This document shows, one piece after another, positions 4,544-40,816 of a stretch of DNA of 64,000 nucleotides. The stretch spans positions 124,001 through 188,000 of the forward strand of contig NZ_CP014854.1 in the NCBI RefSeq assembly GCF_002214365.1. Reading direction: 5' to 3'. The stretch comes from Thermococcus celer Vu 13 = JCM 8558 (GTDB lineage: Archaea > Methanobacteriota_B > Thermococci > Thermococcales > Thermococcaceae). Below the pieces are notes generated by a model that was not told where the DNA came from, did not search any database, and was given only the letters and a program-made list of their open reading frames with translations. The position numbers and the translations under genes are program-made. The stretch's first letter is position 1, and each line of letters begins with the position of its first letter.

Positions 4544-4963
4544 TCAGACGCGCCTGCCCCTTCTTCCGCCCTTCGGCCTTGTGCCGTCGTGCGGAATCGG
4601 GGTGACGTCCTCCACCCTTCCTATCCTGAGACCGGCCCTGGCGAGGGCACGTATGGCCGCCTGGGCACCCGGTCCGGGGCTCTTGCTCTTGCTTCCACCG
4701 GGGGCGCGAACCTTGATGTGAACGCCGGTGAAACCCTTCTCCATGGCCTCCTCGGCCGCCCTCCTCGCGGCTATCATGGCCGCGTACGGCGAGGGCTCGT
4801 CCCTGTCGGCCTTGACCACCATACCACCGCTCCACCTGGAGACGGTCTCGGCCCCGGTGAGGTCGGTGATGTGGATTATGGTGTTGTTGTAACTTGAGTA
4901 GATGTGGGCAACTCCCCACTTCTCCTTCTTCTTAAGGTTGACCTGCTGGGTTTCCTCGCTCAT
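4544..4963 (-). CDS. rps11: 30S ribosomal protein uS11
   Basis: A 139-residue S11 with the conserved platform-binding segment ([20 protein letters not shown]) and the basic C-terminus GGRRGRRV. The start overlaps the rps4 stop by four bases (ATGA), consistent with translational coupling. Part of the archaeal alpha-operon equivalent rps13-rps4-rps11-rpoD. Confidence 0.97.
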
Positions 4964-31683: not shown

Positions 31684-34539
31684 TCAAGAGAAAAGCCCGA
31701 GGGGCGAGTAGCCTTCCCTCGCCGCCTCCACCCTCAGTTCCATCCCAAAGGCGTTCGTTACGGTTCCGCTCTTCTCGGCCCAGATTCCCGCGGGAACCAC
31801 CAGTACATCGCCCCCGAGCTCCATCCCAGGTTCCCCTATGACAACGTAGGCGTCGCTCTCGGGGATTCCCTTTATACCCGCCTTCAGCAGCCCCATTGAA
31901 TTGACGCCCTCGTGGAGGATCAGCGTCGGCACCCCGAGCGGCTCTCCACCCTCAATTATCGCAACGTCGTAGCCATCCTCAACAATTTCCTTGCCCCTGA
32001 GGAGTATCATGAGGAGCGGGAACTTCTCGACGTCCGCCCTGAGGAGAACCCGCCCGGCCCTTTTGATGTCCTCGAGCGTCGCCGTCGAGAGGCCGCCCCT
32101 GACGGTGGAGCCTATCGGGATGCCCCTCTTCCCGGCGAACTCCATGAAAAAGGCTATCTCCTCGTTCGTCAGGTTCGGCGTCAGAATCAGGGCGTAGCTC
32201 CTCTCCGAGATGAAGCGTCTGGCCTCTTCCCAGCCCACAGGCCTCCCGTTGAGGAGCGGCCCGCTCAGGTCCCCGGCCCAGGGCCTGTCAAAGCGGCAGT
32301 GGTCGCAGATGTGCCGGTTCCACGAGTCGTCCACGCGCGAGGCCCTTACGAGCATGCCGTCGTAGACCTCCACCGCCATCTCGCAGGCGAGGGAGCAGCC
32401 GTTGCAGACCGTTCTCACCGCCCGGGTCTTCCACGGGCCCGGCTTTACGAAGGGGACCTTTTCCGTGATGGCCCCAACGGGGCATAGGTCTATCATCTCA
32501 CCGATGAACCTGCCCCGGGAATCGCCGAGGTTTTCGCCGGGTGGCGGAGAGATCTTCGTCCCGAATCCCCGGAAGAGGTAATCAACAACCCCCTCCCCGG
32601 AGACCTCGTGGGTGAAGTTGACGCACTGGCCACAGAGGACGCACTTGTTGTTGTCGAGGGTGACCCATGGGTGGCTCTCGTCTATTTCGAACCTGTTGGT
32701 CTCCCCCTCGAAGGCATGCCCCTCGGCGTTGTAGAGGGTGGCGTATTCCCTGAGCTTGCACCTGAAAACCTCCATGCAGCCACAGCTCATGCACCGCCCC
32801 GCCTCCTCAAGGACCTGCTCCTCCGTAAGGCCCGGCTCCACTTCCTCGAAGGTTCTCTTCCTCCTCTCCACCTCGAGGAGTTCGACCCTCGCCCTCGGCT
32901 TTCTCTCCACGTGCCCGTAGTCCTTCTCCGTGACGCTCTTCCAGTGGTTGTACGGCCTGAGGTCGAAGAGAACCCTGTAAAGATCCTCGTCCTTCAGGAC
33001 GTCCTCGATGTGCTTCTCGGGTTCCGTCAGCACTTCCCTGGCCCTCTCAAGCTTGCCCTTCAGGTAGAGGTCTATCATCACCGCCGCCCTTCTCCCCGTT
33101 GCGATGCTCTCTATGACGGTTGAGGGGCCGAGAACGAGGTCGCCCCCCGCGAAGACCCCCGGAACGCTCGTCTGGAGCGTCACCTCGTCCACCACGGCCC
33201 TTCCGCGCCTCGCCTCCACGCCGAGGCTCCTCAGGAACTCCTCGTCGCAGTACTGGCCTATCGCGAGGATAACGTTGTCGGCCCTAACCCTGAACTCGGA
33301 GCCCTCCACGGGTATCGGTCTCCTCCTGCCGCTCGCATCGGGCTCGCCAAGGCGCATCCTGATCAGCTCCACCCCCTCAACCCTTCCGTCGCCGAGGATC
33401 CTCACGGGGTTCGCCAGGAAGAGGAACTTCACTCCCTCCTCCATCGCCTCCTCCACTTCCCGCGGGTTGGCCGGCATCTCCTCCCTCGAGCGGCGATAGA
33501 CGACTGTGACCTCAGCGCCGAGCCTCAAAGCGGTTCTCGCAACGTCCATGGCCGTGTTTCCGCCACCAACTACCAAGACGCGCTCCCCGAGTCCGACCGT
33601 TTCGCCAGTGTTAACCCTCCTGAGGAACTCTATGCCGTGCATGACCCCCTCGAGCTCCTCACCCGGAATCCGCATTCTCCTGCTCCTCCACGCCCCAACG
33701 CCAAGGAAGACGGCATCGTACCCCTCCCTCAGCTCCTCAAGGGTCACGTCCCTCCCGAGGGCGGTGTTGGTTCTCACCTCTATCCCGGTGTTCACCACCG
33801 TCGCGATGTCCATATCGAGGACGTCCCTCGGCAGTCTGTAGGCCGGGATCCCGTAGCGCATCATCCCGCCCAGCTGGGGCATGGCCTCGATTATCGTCAC
33901 CTCGTGCCCCATCGTCCTCAGGTAGTAGGCGCAGGCGAGACCCGCGGGGCCCCCTCCGACAACCGCGACCCGCTTTCCCGTGGAAGGGGGGATCTCGGGC
34001 ATCCAGGGGCCGTGCTCAAGATCGTAGTCCGCCGCGAAGCGCTTGAGCTGCCTTATCGCCAGGGGCTCATCAACGAGGTTCCTCCTGCAGGCCTCTTCAC
34101 AGAAGGCCGGGCAGACCCTTCCGAGCACCGCGGGCAGGATGTACTTCTCCTTCATCAGCTTAACGGCCTCGTGGTACTTCCCCATGGCTATGAGCGCGAG
34201 GTAGCCCTGAACGTCGCTGTGGGCCGGACAGCCGTCCTGACAGGGGCCTATGCAGTCGCCGTAGTGGTCGGAGAGCATGAGCTCGAGTGCGGTCTTCCTC
34301 ATCGAGACGACTTCCTCGCTCAGGGTCTTCAGCTCAAGCCCCTCCATCGGTTTCAGGGTGCACGAGGTTGTAACCCTCCTCGGCGTGGAGACGAGGCAGA
34401 GCCTGCAGGAGCCGTAGGGGTCAAGCTCGCCCGAGTAACAGAACCCCGGCACGTGCTCTCCGTTTTCGCGAAGGAACTCTATGAGGGGCTTCCCTTCGGA
34501 GGCCTCAAGTTCTTTTCCGTTTACCCTCATCCTGACCAT
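31684..34539 (-). CDS. GltD-NuoG fusion flavoprotein subunit
   Basis: A 951-residue iron-sulfur flavoprotein. Order: N-terminal 2Fe-2S domain (Cys 34, 45, 48, 60); a Cys-rich linker (CIGPCQDGC, VCPAFCEEAC, about 96-151); a GltD/SudA-like FAD and NAD(P) two-dinucleotide-binding domain (GGGPAG near 195, GGGNTA near 325); then NuoG/FdhA-like 4Fe-4S sites (CVLCGQC near 633, C near 686; CNGCSLAC near 712) and a short molybdopterin-oxidoreductase-like remnant. Start ATG 34539 is five bases after GGTGA. It is one base after nuoF. Probably the electron hub of a NuoEFG-like complex working with the divergent hydrogenase. Confidence 0.85.
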   Translation of the reverse strand: MVRMRVNGKELEASEGKPLIEFLRENGEHVPGFCYSGELDPYGSCRLCLVSTPRRVTTSCTLKPMEGLELKTLSEEVVSMRKTALELMLSDHYGDCIGPCQDGCPAHSDVQGYLALIAMGKYHEAVKLMKEKYILPAVLGRVCPAFCEEACRRNLVDEPLAIRQLKRFAADYDLEHGPWMPEIPPSTGKRVAVVGGGPAGLACAYYLRTMGHEVTIIEAMPQLGGMMRYGIPAYRLPRDVLDMDIATVVNTGIEVRTNTALGRDVTLEELREGYDAVFLGVGAWRSRRMRIPGEELEGVMHGIEFLRRVNTGETVGLGERVLVVGGGNTAMDVARTALRLGAEVTVVYRRSREEMPANPREVEEAMEEGVKFLFLANPVRILGDGRVEGVELIRMRLGEPDASGRRRPIPVEGSEFRVRADNVILAIGQYCDEEFLRSLGVEARRGRAVVDEVTLQTSVPGVFAGGDLVLGPSTVIESIATGRRAAVMIDLYLKGKLERAREVLTEPEKHIEDVLKDEDLYRVLFDLRPYNHWKSVTEKDYGHVERKPRARVELLEVERRKRTFEEVEPGLTEEQVLEEAGRCMSCGCMEVFRCKLREYATLYNAEGHAFEGETNRFEIDESHPWVTLDNNKCVLCGQCVNFTHEVSGEGVVDYLFRGFGTKISPPPGENLGDSRGRFIGEMIDLCPVGAITEKVPFVKPGPWKTRAVRTVCNGCSLACEMAVEVYDGMLVRASRVDDSWNRHICDHCRFDRPWAGDLSGPLLNGRPVGWEEARRFISERSYALILTPNLTNEEIAFFMEFAGKRGIPIGSTVRGGLSTATLEDIKRAGRVLLRADVEKFPLLMILLRGKEIVEDGYDVAIIEGGEPLGVPTLILHEGVNSMGLLKAGIKGIPESDAYVVIGEPGMELGGDVLVVPAGIWAEKSGTVTNAFGMELRVEAAREGYSPLGLFS

Positions 34540-34540
34540 C

Positions 34541-36340
34541 TCACTCACCCCCCGTCCTCACCTCTATGGCGTTGAAGCGGCACACCTCGTAGCAGGTTCC
34601 GCACTTGATGCACGCCTCCTGGTCGATGACGTGGGGCCTGAGCCTCTCACCGCTGATGGCCTTGACCGGGCAGAATATGGCGCACGCCGTGCAGCCGGTG
34701 CATTTATCCGCCACGATGACGTACCTGATGAGCGGTTTGCAAACTCTGGCCGGACACCTGCCCTCTATGTGGGCGAGGTACTCGTCCCTGAAGTAGCGCA
34801 GGGTCGTTAGAACAGGGTTCGGAGCGGTCTGCCCGAGGCCGCAGAGGGAGCCGGCCTTAACCTGATAGGCGAGCCTTTCAAGCTTTTGAAGGTCTTCCTC
34901 CGTCGCCTCCCCCCGCGTGAACCTGTCCAGGATCTCCCACATCCTCTTCGTCCCGAGGCGACAGAAGGTGCACTTTCCGCAGGATTCCTTGACCGTGAAG
35001 TCGAGGAAGAACTTCGCCACGTCCACCATGCAGGTGTCCTCGTCCATGACGACCATCCCGCCGCTACCCATGATGGCTCCGGTGGCGTTGACGCTCTCGT
35101 AGTCGACGGGCGTGTCGAAGAGACGCTCCGGGATACAGCCACCCGAGGGGCCGCCAAGCTGAACCGCCTTTATCCTCTTGCCGGTTTTTGTGCCCCCGCC
35201 TATCTCGTAGAGTATCTCCCTGAGCGTCATCCCCATCGGCACCTCGACGTTTCCGCCGCGCTTTACCTTGCCCGACAGCGCGAAGACCTTTGTGCCCCTG
35301 CTCTTCCCGGTTCCTATGGACGCGTAGGCCTCCCAGCCGTGCTTGATTATCCACGGGACGTTGGCCCATGTCTCCACGTTGTTGATGTTCGTGGGTTTGC
35401 CCCAGAGGCCCTTCTGGGCGGGGTAGGGCGGCCTCGGCCTCGGCATCCCGCGCTTTCCCTCTATCGAGGCTATCAGGGCAGTCTCCTCACCGCAGACGAA
35501 CGCCCCGGCACCTTCCTTGATGGCGATGTCGAAGGAGAAACCGCTCCCGAGGATGTTCTCGCCGAGGAAGCCTCTATCCCTGGCCTGTTTCAGCGCTATC
35601 CTCAACCTCCTTATCGCGAGCGGGTACTCTGCGCGGACGTAGATGAAACCTTTGCTCGCCCCGATGGCGTAGGCACCGATTATCATGCCCTCTATGACGC
35701 GGTGGGGGTCGCCCTCAAGCACGTTCCTGTCCATGAATGCCCCCGGATCGCCCTCGTCGGCGTTGCAGACCACGTACTTTACATCGCCCCTGGCCTCCCT
35801 CGCGAACTTCCACTTCAGGCCGGTCGGGAATCCGGCACCGCCCCTTCCCCTCAGGCCGGACTTCGTGATGACCTCTATTATCTCCTCGGGCTCCATCTCC
35901 AGGGCCTTCCTGAGCGCCTCGTAACCCCCGACCGCTATGTACTCGTCGATGTTCTCGGGGTCTATGTAACCGGAGTTCTCCAGCACTATCTTCCTCTGCC
36001 GGGCAAAATAGCCGTCGACGTCCCAGGTTTTCCTCTCGCCGTTCTCCCACCGGTCCCTCTTCACCACCCATTCCTCTACGGGTTTTCCGTTGATAACGTG
36101 CTCCTCTATTATCCTCGGCACCTTCTTCGGGTCGACGTGGCCGTAGGTGATTATCTCCCCACCAGTGATGACGTCAACGAGGGGCTCGCGATAACACATG
36201 CCGACGCAGCCAACTATCTTGAGCCTGACGTCGAGTTTCCGCCTCTCGAGCTCGGCCTTTATGGCCTTGTAGGTCTCCCTCGCGCCGGCCGCTATGCCGC
36301 AGGAGTTCATCCCGACGGCGATGGCCTTTATCTCAGACAT
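34541..36340 (-). CDS. NuoF/HydB-like NADH-binding flavoprotein subunit
   Basis: A 599-residue protein. An N-terminal thioredoxin-like 2Fe-2S domain (MNSCGIAAGA, GCVGMC) is followed by the NADH/FMN domain (GLRGRGGAGFPTGLKW; CNADEGDPGAFMDR), the SLBB region, a 4Fe-4S site SCGKCTFCR...C, and two C-terminal ferredoxin-type clusters (CTGCTACAIFCP, CIKCGTCYEVC). This matches NuoF and the HydB/HndC subunits of bifurcating hydrogenases. It overlaps nuoE by eight bases. It likely oxidises or reduces NAD(P)H in the cytosol. Confidence 0.93.
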   Translation of the reverse strand: MSEIKAIAVGMNSCGIAAGARETYKAIKAELERRKLDVRLKIVGCVGMCYREPLVDVITGGEIITYGHVDPKKVPRIIEEHVINGKPVEEWVVKRDRWENGERKTWDVDGYFARQRKIVLENSGYIDPENIDEYIAVGGYEALRKALEMEPEEIIEVITKSGLRGRGGAGFPTGLKWKFAREARGDVKYVVCNADEGDPGAFMDRNVLEGDPHRVIEGMIIGAYAIGASKGFIYVRAEYPLAIRRLRIALKQARDRGFLGENILGSGFSFDIAIKEGAGAFVCGEETALIASIEGKRGMPRPRPPYPAQKGLWGKPTNINNVETWANVPWIIKHGWEAYASIGTGKSRGTKVFALSGKVKRGGNVEVPMGMTLREILYEIGGGTKTGKRIKAVQLGGPSGGCIPERLFDTPVDYESVNATGAIMGSGGMVVMDEDTCMVDVAKFFLDFTVKESCGKCTFCRLGTKRMWEILDRFTRGEATEEDLQKLERLAYQVKAGSLCGLGQTAPNPVLTTLRYFRDEYLAHIEGRCPARVCKPLIRYVIVADKCTGCTACAIFCPVKAISGERLRPHVIDQEACIKCGTCYEVCRFNAIEVRTGGE

Positions 36341-36797
36341 CGAGCTTCCCCTCCCTGAGCTCCCGCATCAGTTTCCTGGCCTTCTCAGGCGTGAGCTTGC
36401 CGAAGACTTTATCGTTCACCATTATGACGGGGGCCAGACTGCAGCATCCGAGGCAGGCGACGCGTTCGAGCGTTATCAGTCCGTCCTCGGTCGTCTCCCC
36501 CTCCCCGATTCCAAGTTCCTCCGTTATGGCGCCGGATACGTTGACGGCACCGTTCACGTGGCAGGCCGTGCCGTGGCAGATCCTGACGACGTACTTTCCG
36601 AGGGGCTCGAAGCGGAACTGGGCGTAGAACGTGGCGACACCGTAAACCCTGCTGAGCGGTACCCCGAGGTAGTCGGCTATCTCCTCGAGGGCCTCACGGG
36701 GGAGGTAACCGAACCGTTCCTGGGTTCGCTGGAGAAGGGGAATCAGCGAGCTCGGTTCCGCCGGGTAGGAGCGGATATAATCAAGGGAAGATTCCAT
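36333..36797 (-). CDS. NuoE-like 2Fe-2S subunit
   Basis: A 154-residue thioredoxin-fold ferredoxin. The four cluster ligands are in CHGTAC and ACLGCC, spaced as in NuoE/HydC. The N-terminal helical bundle LLQRTQERFGYLPREALEEIADYLG is typical. First gene of the three-gene redox operon. GGTGATGCAAG precedes the ATG and a TATA box lies about 50 bases upstream beside the SurR-like array. Confidence 0.94.
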   Translation of the reverse strand: MESSLDYIRSYPAEPSSLIPLLQRTQERFGYLPREALEEIADYLGVPLSRVYGVATFYAQFRFEPLGKYVVRICHGTACHVNGAVNVSGAITEELGIGEGETTEDGLITLERVACLGCCSLAPVIMVNDKVFGKLTPEKARKLMRELREGKLDV

Positions 36798-36842: not shown

Positions 36843-36852
36843 CTTATAAAAG
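36843..36852 (-). promoter_or_regulatory. Promoter of the NuoEF-fusion operon
   Basis: Minus-strand CTTTTATAAG, about 46-55 bases before the nuoE-like ATG. The SurR-like array starts 16 bp upstream of it, in activator position. Confidence 0.6.
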
Positions 36853-36867
36853 TGCACTAAAGCACGG

Positions 36868-36898
36868 GTTTGTAACATCTGGTTGGCAACCATTTGTT
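36868..36898. promoter_or_regulatory. SurR-type operator array between the two redox operons
   Basis: GTTTGTAAC (36868-36876), five bases, GTTGGCAAC (36882-36890), five bases, then GTT (36896-36898). This is the SurR consensus GTTn3AAC repeated with the n5-GTT extension. SurR is the Thermococcales redox regulator that, without sulfur, activates hydrogenase genes. The array lies directly upstream of both diverging TATA boxes. Confidence 0.85.
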
Positions 36899-36905
36899 TG
36901 AAAAA

Positions 36906-36915
36906 TTCTTAAATC
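36906..36915 (+). promoter_or_regulatory. Promoter of hyhBGSL
   Basis: TTCTTAAATC on the plus strand, eight bases after the SurR-like array and about 50 bases before the hyhB start. A second A/T block (ACTTAAAATTG, 36928-36938) follows and may hold the transcription start. Confidence 0.5.
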
Positions 36916-36964
36916 ACTCCTTTACAAACTTAAAATTGTAATGCCCTCCGTGGCGGTGATGCCC

Positions 36965-37969
36965 TTGAGGTACATAAAATTACCTTCCGAAAATTTTGGG
37001 AAGTTCTTCAACTCCCTCAGGGAGTGGGGCAGGGTGTACGGGCCGGTGAAGAAGGGAAAGGTCTACTCCTTCCAGGAGGTTGGGGACCCGGCGGAGATGG
37101 CCCTCGACTACAACAGAACCATGCTCCCGCCGAAGAAGTTCTTTGTGGGGCCCAGAGAGACCATTCTAAGGCTGAAAAACGGCCACTGGGAAGAAGAAAC
37201 CAACGTGGAGCCGACTGTCCTCTTCGGCCTCCATTCCTGCGACATCCACGGCCTCAAGATACTCGACGGGGTGTACCTCAACGAACCCGTCGACCCCTAC
37301 TACCTGAGGAGAAGGGAAGCCACACTGATAGTGGGAATAAGTTGCATGCCCGACGAATACTGCTTCTGCAAGAGCCTAGGAACGCACTTCGCCATGGACG
37401 GCTTCGACCTTTTCCTGCACGAGCTACCGGACGGCTGGCTCGTGAGGATAGGCAGCGTCCGCGGGCACGAGATAGCCTGGAGACACGGCGAGCTGTTCGA
37501 GGAGGTGACCGATGAAGACCTGGCCAACTTCAGAGAGTTCGAGGAGAGGAGGGCTAACTCCTTCCGGAGGGAGCTTCCACAGGGGGGCCTGGCCGACATG
37601 CTCGATCTGGCCTACAACAGCCCGGTCTGGAAGAAGTACGCGGAGATATGTCTCGGCTGCGGCAACTGCAACATGGTCTGCCCAACGTGCAGATGCTACG
37701 AGGTATGCGACCGCTGGACGGACGCGTACGGCGCGGTGCGCGAGAGGAGGTACGACTCGTGCTTCATGGAGAACCATGGTCTGGTCGCCGGGGGCCACAA
37801 CTTCAGGCCAACGCGCTTGGACCGCTTCAGGCACCGCTACTACTGCAAGAGTTACTTCGACCCCTCGGCGGGCTACAACTGCGTCGGCTGCGGGAGATGC
37901 GACGAGTTCTGCCCGGCGAAGATTGAGCACGTCGGGGTTCTTGAGGAGGTCAGGGGGTCGCTCCAATGA
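36965..37969 (+). CDS. hyhB: Cytosolic NiFe hydrogenase (sulfhydrogenase) subunit beta
   Basis: A 334-residue iron-sulfur subunit related to anaerobic sulfite reductase A. Two 4Fe-4S sites lie in the C-terminal half: CLGCGNCNMVCPTC and CVGCGRCDEFCP. I choose TTG 36965, five bases after GGTGA and giving M-RYIKLPSENF, which matches the family's MRYVKL start; the upstream ATG at 36941 has no binding site. It passes electrons between the gamma subunit and the hydrogenase dimer. It overlaps hyhG by four bases. Confidence 0.92.
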   Translation: MRYIKLPSENFGKFFNSLREWGRVYGPVKKGKVYSFQEVGDPAEMALDYNRTMLPPKKFFVGPRETILRLKNGHWEEETNVEPTVLFGLHSCDIHGLKILDGVYLNEPVDPYYLRRREATLIVGISCMPDEYCFCKSLGTHFAMDGFDLFLHELPDGWLVRIGSVRGHEIAWRHGELFEEVTDEDLANFREFEERRANSFRRELPQGGLADMLDLAYNSPVWKKYAEICLGCGNCNMVCPTCRCYEVCDRWTDAYGAVRERRYDSCFMENHGLVAGGHNFRPTRLDRFRHRYYCKSYFDPSAGYNCVGCGRCDEFCPAKIEHVGVLEEVRGSLQ

Positions 37970-38835
37970 ACCCGTACATGAGCCACGACGCGAGGATTCT
38001 GGAGGTTAAGGACCTTACGCCGAGGGAGAAGCTCTTCACGCTGCGCTTCGTTGACCCCGAGGTCGGGGCGAACTTCAGCTTCAGACCGGGTCAGTTCGTC
38101 ATCGTCGATGTTCGGGGCTTCGGCGAGTTCCCGATAAGCCTCTGCTCGTCTCCAACGAGGAAGGGTTACCTCCAGCTTTGCATCAGAAAAGCGGGCAGGA
38201 TGACCAAGTTTATACACGGGATGAAGGAGGGCGACATCATAGGGATTCGCGGGCCCTACGGAAACGGCTTCCCGATGGAGCGGATGGAGGGTTCCAACCT
38301 CATCCTCGTGGCCGGCGGCCTGGGCATGGCCCCCCTCCGCTCGGTGCTCTGGTACGCCATAGACACGGGAAAGTACGGGCACGTCCACCTTTTCTACGGG
38401 ACCAAGGCCTACGAGGACATACTCTTCCGTGACGAGGTAATCCACCTGCTGAAGCACGGTGAGGCCATGAACTGCTCGGTAAAGCTCGCCTACGAGGTTG
38501 AGAGCCCATCGTGCATCTACCTTGAGAGGGGCTTCTCGGACAGGGTGTGCAGGGGCGTCGTCACCGACCTGTTCCGGGGCGAGGAGTTCAACGTGAACAA
38601 CACCTACGCCCTCATCTGCGGCCCGCCCGTGATGTACAGGTTCGTCATAAGGGAGCTCCTCGACAGAAGGCTCTCGCCGGGTAGGATCTACATGACCCTC
38701 GAGAGGAGAATGCGCTGTGGGGTGGGCAAGTGCGGCCACTGCATCGTCGGAACCAGCGTTTCCATAAAGTACATCTGTCAGGACGGGCCGGTCTTCACCT
38801 ACTGGGACGCTCTCTCCACGAGGGGGCTGATATGA
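37966..38835 (+). CDS. hyhG: Cytosolic NiFe hydrogenase (sulfhydrogenase) subunit gamma
   Basis: A 289-residue FAD/NAD(P)H-binding subunit. Flavin-binding FRPGQFVIVDV and FPISLCSSP are followed by the nucleotide domain with LVAGGLGMAPLRS and CGPPVMYRFV. A 2Fe-2S site near the C-terminus is CGVGKCGHC...C. The C-terminal TLERRMRCGVGK and ...DALSTRGLI closely follow the SHII type. It exchanges electrons with NAD(P)H in the cytosol. Overlaps at both ends with neighbours (ATGA). Confidence 0.95.
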   Translation: MNPYMSHDARILEVKDLTPREKLFTLRFVDPEVGANFSFRPGQFVIVDVRGFGEFPISLCSSPTRKGYLQLCIRKAGRMTKFIHGMKEGDIIGIRGPYGNGFPMERMEGSNLILVAGGLGMAPLRSVLWYAIDTGKYGHVHLFYGTKAYEDILFRDEVIHLLKHGEAMNCSVKLAYEVESPSCIYLERGFSDRVCRGVVTDLFRGEEFNVNNTYALICGPPVMYRFVIRELLDRRLSPGRIYMTLERRMRCGVGKCGHCIVGTSVSIKYICQDGPVFTYWDALSTRGLI

Positions 38836-39572
38836 TGGAGAAGCTCAAGCTCGGGGTCTTTGAGCTTACGGACTGCGGCGGCTGTGCATTGAACATGCTC
38901 TTCCTCTACGAGAGGCTCTTCGATCTCCTCGAATTCTACGAGATAGAGGAGTTCCACATGGCAACGAGCCTTGATGGAGGAACCCACTACGACGTCGCCC
39001 TCGTGACCGGAACCGTCTCGACGAGGCGCGACCTGAACCTCCTCAAGGATGTTAGGAACCGCTCGGACTACCTGATAGCCCTCGGAACCTGCGCGACCCA
39101 CGGTTCGGTTCAGGCGAGCGTTGAAATGCCGATCAGGGAAAAGCTGAAGGCCGTTTACGGAGACGGTGGAAACCCGATGGGCGCCCTCGACTCCAAACCG
39201 GTCGTTGAGTACGTGGCCGTCGATTTCGCCCTTCCTGGATGCCCCTACGATAAGGAGGAGGTTTATCAGGCGCTCATCGACATAGCCAAAGGCGTCGAGC
39301 CCGTGAGGAAGGACTACCCCGTCTGCCTCGAGTGCAAGCTCAACGAGTACGAGTGCGTGCTGGTGAAGAAGGGCCTCCCCTGCCTCGGTCCGATAACCTA
39401 CGGGGGCTGCAACGCCGTCTGCCTGAGATCGGGCCTCGGGTGCATAGGGTGCCGCGGGCCGTTGCCCGGAGAGGTGAACCCTGCCGGGGAATACGAGGTA
39501 CTGAAGAGCCTCGGCTACGATGAGGAATACATCTTGAGGAAGTTCAAGACCTTCTCGAGGTGGGAGCCATGA
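38832..39572 (+). CDS. hyhS: Cytosolic NiFe hydrogenase small subunit (delta)
   Basis: A 246-residue small subunit. The proximal cluster motif begins ELTDCGGCALN; further cluster cysteines appear in GTCATHGS, PGCPYD, CLECKLNEYEC, CLGPITYGGCNAVC and GCIGCRG, enough for three 4Fe-4S clusters. The N-terminus KLGVFELTDCGGCALN is the SHII type. No Tat signal, so it is cytosolic. ATG 38832 overlaps the hyhG stop. Confidence 0.95.
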   Translation: MMEKLKLGVFELTDCGGCALNMLFLYERLFDLLEFYEIEEFHMATSLDGGTHYDVALVTGTVSTRRDLNLLKDVRNRSDYLIALGTCATHGSVQASVEMPIREKLKAVYGDGGNPMGALDSKPVVEYVAVDFALPGCPYDKEEVYQALIDIAKGVEPVRKDYPVCLECKLNEYECVLVKKGLPCLGPITYGGCNAVCLRSGLGCIGCRGPLPGEVNPAGEYEVLKSLGYDEEYILRKFKTFSRWEP

Positions 39573-40816
39573 TAATCGAGACCCGGGAATTCACGCGCGT
39601 TGAGGGCAACGGCAAAGCCGAGGTAGTCATCGAGGACGACGAGGTAAAGGACGTTAGGCTCAAGATAATTGAAGGCCCGCGCTTTTTTGAACTGTTAACC
39701 CTGGGAAGGCACTACCGAGACGTACCCGACCTGGAGGCGAGGATATGCGCCATCTGCTACCTCGCCCACAGCGTCGCCTCGGTCATTGGAATCGAGAGGG
39801 CCTTCGGGGTCGAGGTGCCCGAGGAGGTAAGCCTCCTGAGGGAGCTGGGGTTGATAGGGGAGTTCCTCGAGAGTCACTCACTCCACCTGTACCTACTCGT
39901 CGCACCCGACCTGTTCGGCTATCCCGACGCCATAAGGATGGCGAGCAGGCACGGCGAACTCGTGAGGGAGGGGCTGGCCATCAAGGCCTTCGGTAACAGA
40001 CTGAGGGTCCTCGTGGGAGGAAGGGAGATACACGGCATAAACGTAAAACCCGGTGGCTTTGGGAGGTACCCGACCGTCGAAGAGCTCGAGAGGATTGAGA
40101 GGGAGAGCGAAGCCCTCCTCCGGCTGGCAAAGCGCTCCGTGAGACTCTTTGCCCGGCTCCAACCCTACGGCGCCCGGGCGGGCCACTTCGTTGCCACCGA
40201 CGGCTACCTATGGGGTGAAAGGCTGATATCGGACGAAGGAGGGAAGTTCCACTACACAGAGAGGATAGAGGAGCGCTCCCCCGTCTACAGCTTTGCCAAG
40301 CAGAGCCACTACATGGGGGAAACCTTCCTTGTCGGGGCCCTGCCGAGGCTCCTACTCAAGTCGAGCATGCTGACACCCACCGCCAGGAGGCTCTTCGAGG
40401 AACACGGGGAGAAACTGGAGACCGGATACGTGAGTTACAACAACCTCGCCCAGGCTATAGAGCTCGTGTATTCCATTGAGAGGGCAAAAGAGATAGCGAG
40501 GAGGCTCCTCGATAGGGGCATCGAAGGGGAGAACGTCCCCGTTGAGCCGAGGGAGGGGGAAGGAATCGGCTACGTCGAGGCACCGAGGGGGGTTCTAATA
40601 CACCACTACAGAATGGACGCCAGCGGCAACGTAACTTACTCGAACATAATAACCCCAACCGCGCTGAACCACGCAATGATCGAAGCGAGCCTGTTGACGG
40701 AGGCCCGGGGGCTTTACGGCGAGACGGACGAGGGGGAGATGGTAAAGAGGCTCGAGGAGACGGTGAGGGCCTTCGACCCGTGCATATCCTGCTCGGTGCA
40801 CCTCGTGAACCTGTAG
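39569..40816 (+). CDS. hyhL: Cytosolic NiFe hydrogenase large subunit (alpha)
   Basis: A 415-residue catalytic subunit with both NiFe-binding motifs: RICAIC near residue 59 and DPCISCSVH at the C-terminus. All four metal-binding positions are encoded as cysteine. Only four residues (LVNL) follow the last conserved His, a short extension of the kind removed by a maturation protease. ATG 39569 (MIIETREFTRVEG) follows GAGGTGGGAGCC and overlaps the hyhS stop. Reversible H2 production or uptake, and polysulfide reduction, are known for the family. Confidence 0.95.
   Translation: MIIETREFTRVEGNGKAEVVIEDDEVKDVRLKIIEGPRFFELLTLGRHYRDVPDLEARICAICYLAHSVASVIGIERAFGVEVPEEVSLLRELGLIGEFLESHSLHLYLLVAPDLFGYPDAIRMASRHGELVREGLAIKAFGNRLRVLVGGREIHGINVKPGGFGRYPTVEELERIERESEALLRLAKRSVRLFARLQPYGARAGHFVATDGYLWGERLISDEGGKFHYTERIEERSPVYSFAKQSHYMGETFLVGALPRLLLKSSMLTPTARRLFEEHGEKLETGYVSYNNLAQAIELVYSIERAKEIARRLLDRGIEGENVPVEPREGEGIGYVEAPRGVLIHHYRMDASGNVTYSNIITPTALNHAMIEASLLTEARGLYGETDEGEMVKRLEETVRAFDPCISCSVHLVNL

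Follow-up and report, generated by a model that had tools for sequence, protein, structure and literature searches.

A dyad-symmetric SurR-type operator predicted to co-activate the divergent nfnABC and sulfhydrogenase II operons of Thermococcus celer

The published binding motif of the sulfur-responsive regulator SurR is GTTn3AAC, with GTTn3AACn5GTT as its high-affinity form. According to the position rule, SurR bound upstream of the TATA box activates transcription, while SurR bound downstream represses it (PMC12162507). In Thermococcus piezophilus, nfnI (nfnSL/SuDH I) and shyBCDA (A7C91_RS06205 / RS06200) share a long SurR motif, at 72 and 69 bp, and control of NfnI and sulfhydrogenase II (SHII) by SurR through this motif has already been published (PMC8595942). 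The second relevant system is Nfn-Bfu of T. sibiricus (Tsib1517-1519; PDB 9n5u/9n5v), which carries out NADPH-dependent ferredoxin reduction coupled to NAD+ (Schut et al. 2022, PMC9304861); its biochemistry is thus described, and its transcriptional control was not found reported in the literature searched.

The T. celer locus compared here with these systems lies in a window of 64 kb, the whole stretch of DNA that was analysed. Positions 36868-36898 of the window read GTTTGTAAC (36868-36876), ATCTG, GTTGGCAAC (36882-36890), CATTT and GTT (36896-36898). Base-by-base reading gives two elements without strand, predicted SurR site A, a palindromic GTTn3AAC, and predicted SurR site B, 14 bp from A, followed by a fifth half-site, the terminal GTT, which completes GTTn3AACn5GTT for the SHII side; the array contains two overlapping long sites of this form, both exact. 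The right-hand GTT runs on as GTTTGAAAA into the BRE, and GTTTGAAAA is one mismatch from GTTn3AAC. The first-pass annotation had described two full GTTn3AAC elements in n5 phase plus an extra GTT, a description that is correct at every base and lies far beyond chance. Both the window and the 1.87-Mb genome contain the full 31-bp pattern exactly once; with up to two mismatches allowed it still matches a single place in the window, re-read there in a shifted register, compared with 0.03 window matches expected from dinucleotide shuffles at two mismatches. A plasmid search of the region gave no match.

The operon to the left, on the minus strand, begins with nfnC (36333-36797), a NuoE-type subunit of 154 aa (Pfam PF01257), followed by nfnB (34541-36340), a NuoF-type flavoprotein of 599 aa with a C-terminal ferredoxin domain (9n5u_B, 1235 bits over 1-595), and nfnA (31684-34548), 954 aa (9n5u_A NfnA, 1688 bits over 1-947), in which an NfnL-like NADP(H)/FAD module is fused to NuoG-type Fe-S domains. 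A NuoE-type C, a NuoF-type B with ferredoxin domain and an A with NfnL-like module together identify NfnABC, the NADPH/NADH/ferredoxin bifurcating enzyme with the structure PDB 9n5u; the three gene types are those of T. sibiricus Nfn-Bfu, with full-length matches. The earlier name 'NuoEF-fusion operon' has to be given up, as the NuoE- and NuoF-type genes are separate and the NfnL fusion is found in the 954-aa alpha subunit. An NfnABC match of the full-length type was present in about 40 of the 94 Thermococcaceae genomes searched, and nfnABC adjoins SHII in the relatives examined. The T. celer genome has no NfnI orthologue, its best NfnS-type matches being 47% and 39% identical compared with 78-90% among NfnI orthologues, and in this it fits the mutual exclusion of Nfn-Bfu and NfnI in Thermococcaceae. 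Both of these remaining NfnS paralogues lie beside long SurR sites (L021, genome 793983-793999; L022, genome 882319-882335); at L022, GTTn3AAC elements flank the TATA box, as expected for repression.

The operon to the right, on the plus strand, encodes SHII, with all four subunits scoring above the NCBIfam equivalog cut-offs (NF040828-NF040831): shyB, beta subunit (36965-37969; NF040829, 696 bits, cut-off 690, model from residue 9); shyC, gamma subunit (37966-38835; NF040830, 624 bits, cut-off 600); shyD, delta subunit (38730-39572; NF040831, 478.5 bits, cut-off 460), whose coordinates are those of the listed ORF while the family model starts at residue 39; and shyA, the NiFe catalytic subunit (39560-40816; NF040828, 768 bits, cut-off 700). 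Identity as SHI (HydBGDA) was rejected, the NF040832/33/35/36 scores being far under the HydA/B/G/D cut-offs. The most likely start of shyB is TTG 36965, preceded by the Shine-Dalgarno sequence GGTGATG at 36954-36960; ATG 36941, which gives the longest ORF, and ATG 36959 were discarded, since relatives have ATT, GTC or ATA at the aligned codon and the family model starts at TTG 36965. Outside the Thermococcales, Candidatus Methanodesulfokora carries ShyB-like genes (L042, L043) 67-73% identical to shyB here, which suggests that SHII may have moved by horizontal transfer.

The TATA box of the nfnABC operon, TTTATAAG, lies at 36843-36850 on the minus strand, and that of the shyBCDA operon, CTTAAATC, at 36908-36915 on the plus strand, with the BRE GAAAAATT between it and the GTT at 36896-36898, 9 bp away. 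The array had been said to abut TATA boxes on both sides; the boxes are real, but the left one is 17 bp from the GTT at 36868. This gap contains AAG at 36860-36862 (no strand assigned; CTT on the minus strand), an invariant sixth position in n5 phase, which places the left TATA box 9 bp from the outermost half-site and so mirrors the right side. The complete order is therefore minus-strand TATA (36850-36843), 9 bp, AAG, 5 bp, site A, 5 bp, site B, 5 bp, GTT, 9 bp and CTTAAATC. With AAG counted, the operator is dyad-symmetric around 36879, each TATA box starts exactly 9 bp past the outermost half-site, and the nfnABC side, CTT-n9-[C/T]TTATAA, mirrors the SHII side. We read AAG as a putative degenerate SurR half-site and, since its minus strand gives CTT and not GTT, can only infer a SurR contact there. 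The array lies between the two TATA boxes and upstream of each, a placement of the activation type. No GTTn3AAC occurs downstream of the nfnABC TATA box. Unlike the other n9 promoters, that of nfnABC has no A-rich BRE, and the half-site closest to its TATA box is CTT. A second candidate TATA box at about 36930-36937 was rejected, since its start site would come after the Shine-Dalgarno sequence. Between the SHII TATA box and the start codon, CTTTACAAAC at 36922-36931 (GTTTGTAAAG on the minus strand) is kept in most SHII-bearing relatives; it differs from GTTn3AAC by one mismatch and, given its place downstream of the TATA box, is possibly a weak repressing SurR site.

SurR itself is encoded in the genome (P0008; NF047699, 394 bits, cut-off 250; match to PDB 2qlz/PF0095), with the CxxC switch present as CTEC at residues 24-27. 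The surR gene maps to about 48.3 kb in the genome and is oriented divergently to a Pdo-like gene, an arrangement of SurR and divergent pdo shared with the described SurR regulons. GTTn3AACn5GTT occurs 30 times in the genome compared with 10 times for the reversed control pattern; three of these 30 occurrences are the nfnABC-shyBCDA array in its three registers, and most SurR-type sites in the genome have three or four half-sites. A long site followed after n9 by CTTAAA is common to the SHII promoter, to hypA (GTTTTAAACctcagGTTcaaaaaatcCTTAAA) and to three other places in the genome, and GTTn3AACn5GTTn9CTTWWA gives 120 matches in 94 family genomes, compared with a single match for the reversed pattern. 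Two further long SurR sites with CTTAAA exactly 9 bp away were noted at genome positions 4743-4782 (L001/L002) and 1151087-1151118 (L024).

Conservation was analysed on intergenic regions from 70 loci of Thermococcaceae genomes, 44 of which were placed on a NuoE tree for counting changes per column. Per column, the mean number of changes was 0.07 in the 15 half-site bases, 8.6 in the spacers and 8.1 at third codon positions (Mann-Whitney p = 3e-7); the array pattern was required for alignment, by which, among NfnABC loci, only one (L177) dropped out. Site A showed no change in its six half-site bases, AAG at 36860-36862 showed none on the tree and was present in 50 of 50 loci, and the left TATA box showed 0-3 changes per column, mostly 0, with none in the core. 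The array is in register at every NfnABC locus except L177, which encodes a distant NfnABC relative (38-48% identity), and the loci other than L177 retain TATA-n9-AAG-n5-array, with a weaker site B, GTTn3CAC, in one genus and a few other NfnABC loci. A chance arrangement in AT-rich intergenic DNA, to which the shortness of GTTn3AAC (19 occurrences in the window) might lend itself, is already refuted by the 44-locus comparison, together with the low shuffle expectation, and deserves practically no weight. We also considered that a regulator other than SurR uses the array or the adjoining GTGCACTnAAGYACA stretch, given that 36852-36865 is conserved beyond what a TATA/BRE explains; this is highly improbable, as GTTn3AACn5GTT is the published SurR motif, SurR is present in the genome and the GTGCACTAAAGYACA stretch is absent from its other promoters. 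As a separate regulon motif, GTGCACTAAAGYACA was rejected: it has four genome places at up to two mismatches, no other of which lies upstream of an evident promoter, and without such recurrence it looks local. Two relatives carry insertions in this region. In L152 (G076:C5:544500-546900), about 900 bp are inserted between the array with the SHII promoter and shyB; the N-terminal match of this shyB starts only at residue 13 of the trimmed query, and SHII looks newly disrupted. L146 (G063:C355:600-2100) has an insertion of about 95 bp with inverted ends ACTGTCA...TGACAGT between the conserved operator and a shyB far more diverged than the adjoining nfnC, which may reflect a mobile element together with replacement of the gene, or else a mixed MAG.

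Five genomes (loci L172-L176) keep nfnABC in the absence of SHII, two of them with recognisable hydrogenase remnants, and on the NuoE tree they represent about four independent SHII losses. Compared with their nearest relatives, they show 0/15 half-site differences every time, 0/3 in AAG and at most 1/9 in the left TATA box, with up to 11/16 in the spacers, 5-12/17 in the SHII BRE/TATA and 15-21/25 in the region beyond. These intact half-sites in SHII-less genomes imply that the array is maintained for nfnABC and not for SHII alone. A function of the array for SHII only, with nfnABC as a mere neighbour, would agree with site B and GTT-n9-CTTAAA being the ancestral form of the SHII promoter, which also occurs beside NfnI, but in view of the four or so SHII-less lineages and of the nearly invariant left TATA box and AAG at fixed spacing, we consider it very unlikely. 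Because SHII loss in these lineages leaves the operator intact beside nfnABC, both operons are probably SurR targets; that they are so in some sense is very probable. The earlier proposal that the array controls both divergent operons is supported in part, by a SurR-type operator upstream of both TATA boxes that is under strong selection and survives SHII loss; its operon names need correcting, and its common sulfur response is a prediction.

The direction of the response is a separate matter. Our preferred reading, to which we assign a probability of roughly two in three, is a bidirectional SurR operator that would co-activate nfnABC and shyBCDA without sulfur, and activation of both is predicted from the upstream position rule and from the lack of GTTn3AAC downstream of the nfnABC TATA box. 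In this mechanism, without sulfur, reduced SurR dimers would fill both palindromes (A and B) and probably also the half-sites beside them, and bound SurR would stabilise TFB/TBP at both TATA boxes, such that NADPH-linked bifurcation by NfnABC and SHII would be switched on together; S0 would oxidise the SurR CxxC, SurR would leave and both promoters would fall. What we infer from the operator is that SurR binds, that it fills the sites cooperatively and in which direction the promoters respond, the last above all for nfnABC. Alternatively, the same SurR operator might work in opposite directions, with SHII activated and nfnABC held down and released on S0, as reported for NfnI. In T. onnurineus, proteomics detected the NfnI subunit SudA (TON_0057) on sulfur alone, whereas an SHII subunit (TON_0054) went undetected there (PMC4463584; summary table in PMC6981617), even though the SurR site of this pair lies upstream of each TATA box. 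Since S0 raises NfnI and lowers SHII in that species, opposite responses retain some probability here. The T. piezophilus authors likewise placed Nfn under negative SurR control (PMC8595942), and the weak BRE and CTT half-site of the nfnABC promoter would agree with such an arrangement. Against it, the left TATA box shares the 9-bp upstream geometry of the SurR-activated promoter type, no site lies on or downstream of it, and the geometry on the NfnI side is different and variable; we therefore regard opposite directions as unlikely. SHII of Palaeococcus pacificus shows hardly any response to S0 (PMC6981617), and for NfnABC no sulfur-response data were found in the literature searched. Co-activation without sulfur, the reading we prefer, would place the recently characterised bifurcating enzyme NfnABC in the SurR sulfur switch.

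At SHII loci without nfnABC, the divergent gene, wherever the contig extends far enough, is NfnS of NfnI (PDB 5jca_S), these NfnS proteins being 78-90% identical to one another, and the NfnI-SHII promoter region holds a single long SurR site, which corresponds to site B. In one genus, four loci have NfnI and a decayed nfnABC TATA box, with site A and AAG kept; this persistence beside the decayed box points to replacement of NfnABC by NfnI. A rough ShyB tree of 105 codons, of low resolution and indicative only, requires about eight NfnI/NfnABC switches. At L161 (G093:C3:170600-172200), a relic of an nfnABC-type promoter (CTTATAAA, with AAG in phase) and decayed half-sites lie upstream of SHII, with NfnI in the divergent position. 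Tentatively, and at somewhat less than even odds, two unrelated bifurcating enzymes may have been swapped several times in the exchangeable slot of a cooperative, dyad-symmetric SurR platform that drives both promoters, each time under a SurR site, with the sixth, CTT half-site tuning the nfnABC side. Where NfnI was replaced by NfnABC beside SHII, regulation would have been conserved and the enzyme exchanged. The array offers a clean test case of one archaeal regulator acting on two promoters, and species with the array and without SHII are ready-made genetic tests.

Control of NfnABC, a dyad operator of five half-sites, the mirrored n9 spacing and the exchange of enzymes were not found in the literature searched, Lipscomb 2009, Yang 2010 and Lipscomb 2017 lying outside its scope. 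The locus has the same half-sites, spacings and place upstream of BRE/TATA as the SurR promoters described in Thermococcales (hypA, mbh, SHI, SHII, surR/pdo), and its SHII promoter has a long site-n9-CTTAAA geometry identical to that of hypA. Since five-half-site arrays also occur elsewhere in relatives, for example at 978654 in G027, just upstream of SHI (match 977474-978499), the array appears to be a strong form of the known SurR operator and not a new kind; it differs from the known promoters in joining five half-sites and an in-phase AAG into a single dyad-symmetric operator whose centre lies between two TATA boxes. With the nfnI-shyBCDA type of T. piezophilus it shares the SHII operon, site B, the TATA position and a divergent bifurcating Fd:NAD(P)H enzyme. 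Here, in contrast, the enzyme encoded on the left is NfnABC, which is unrelated to NfnI; an additional GTT makes site A complete, and the left TATA box lies at the mirrored distance of 9 bp, whereas the NfnI side is variable.
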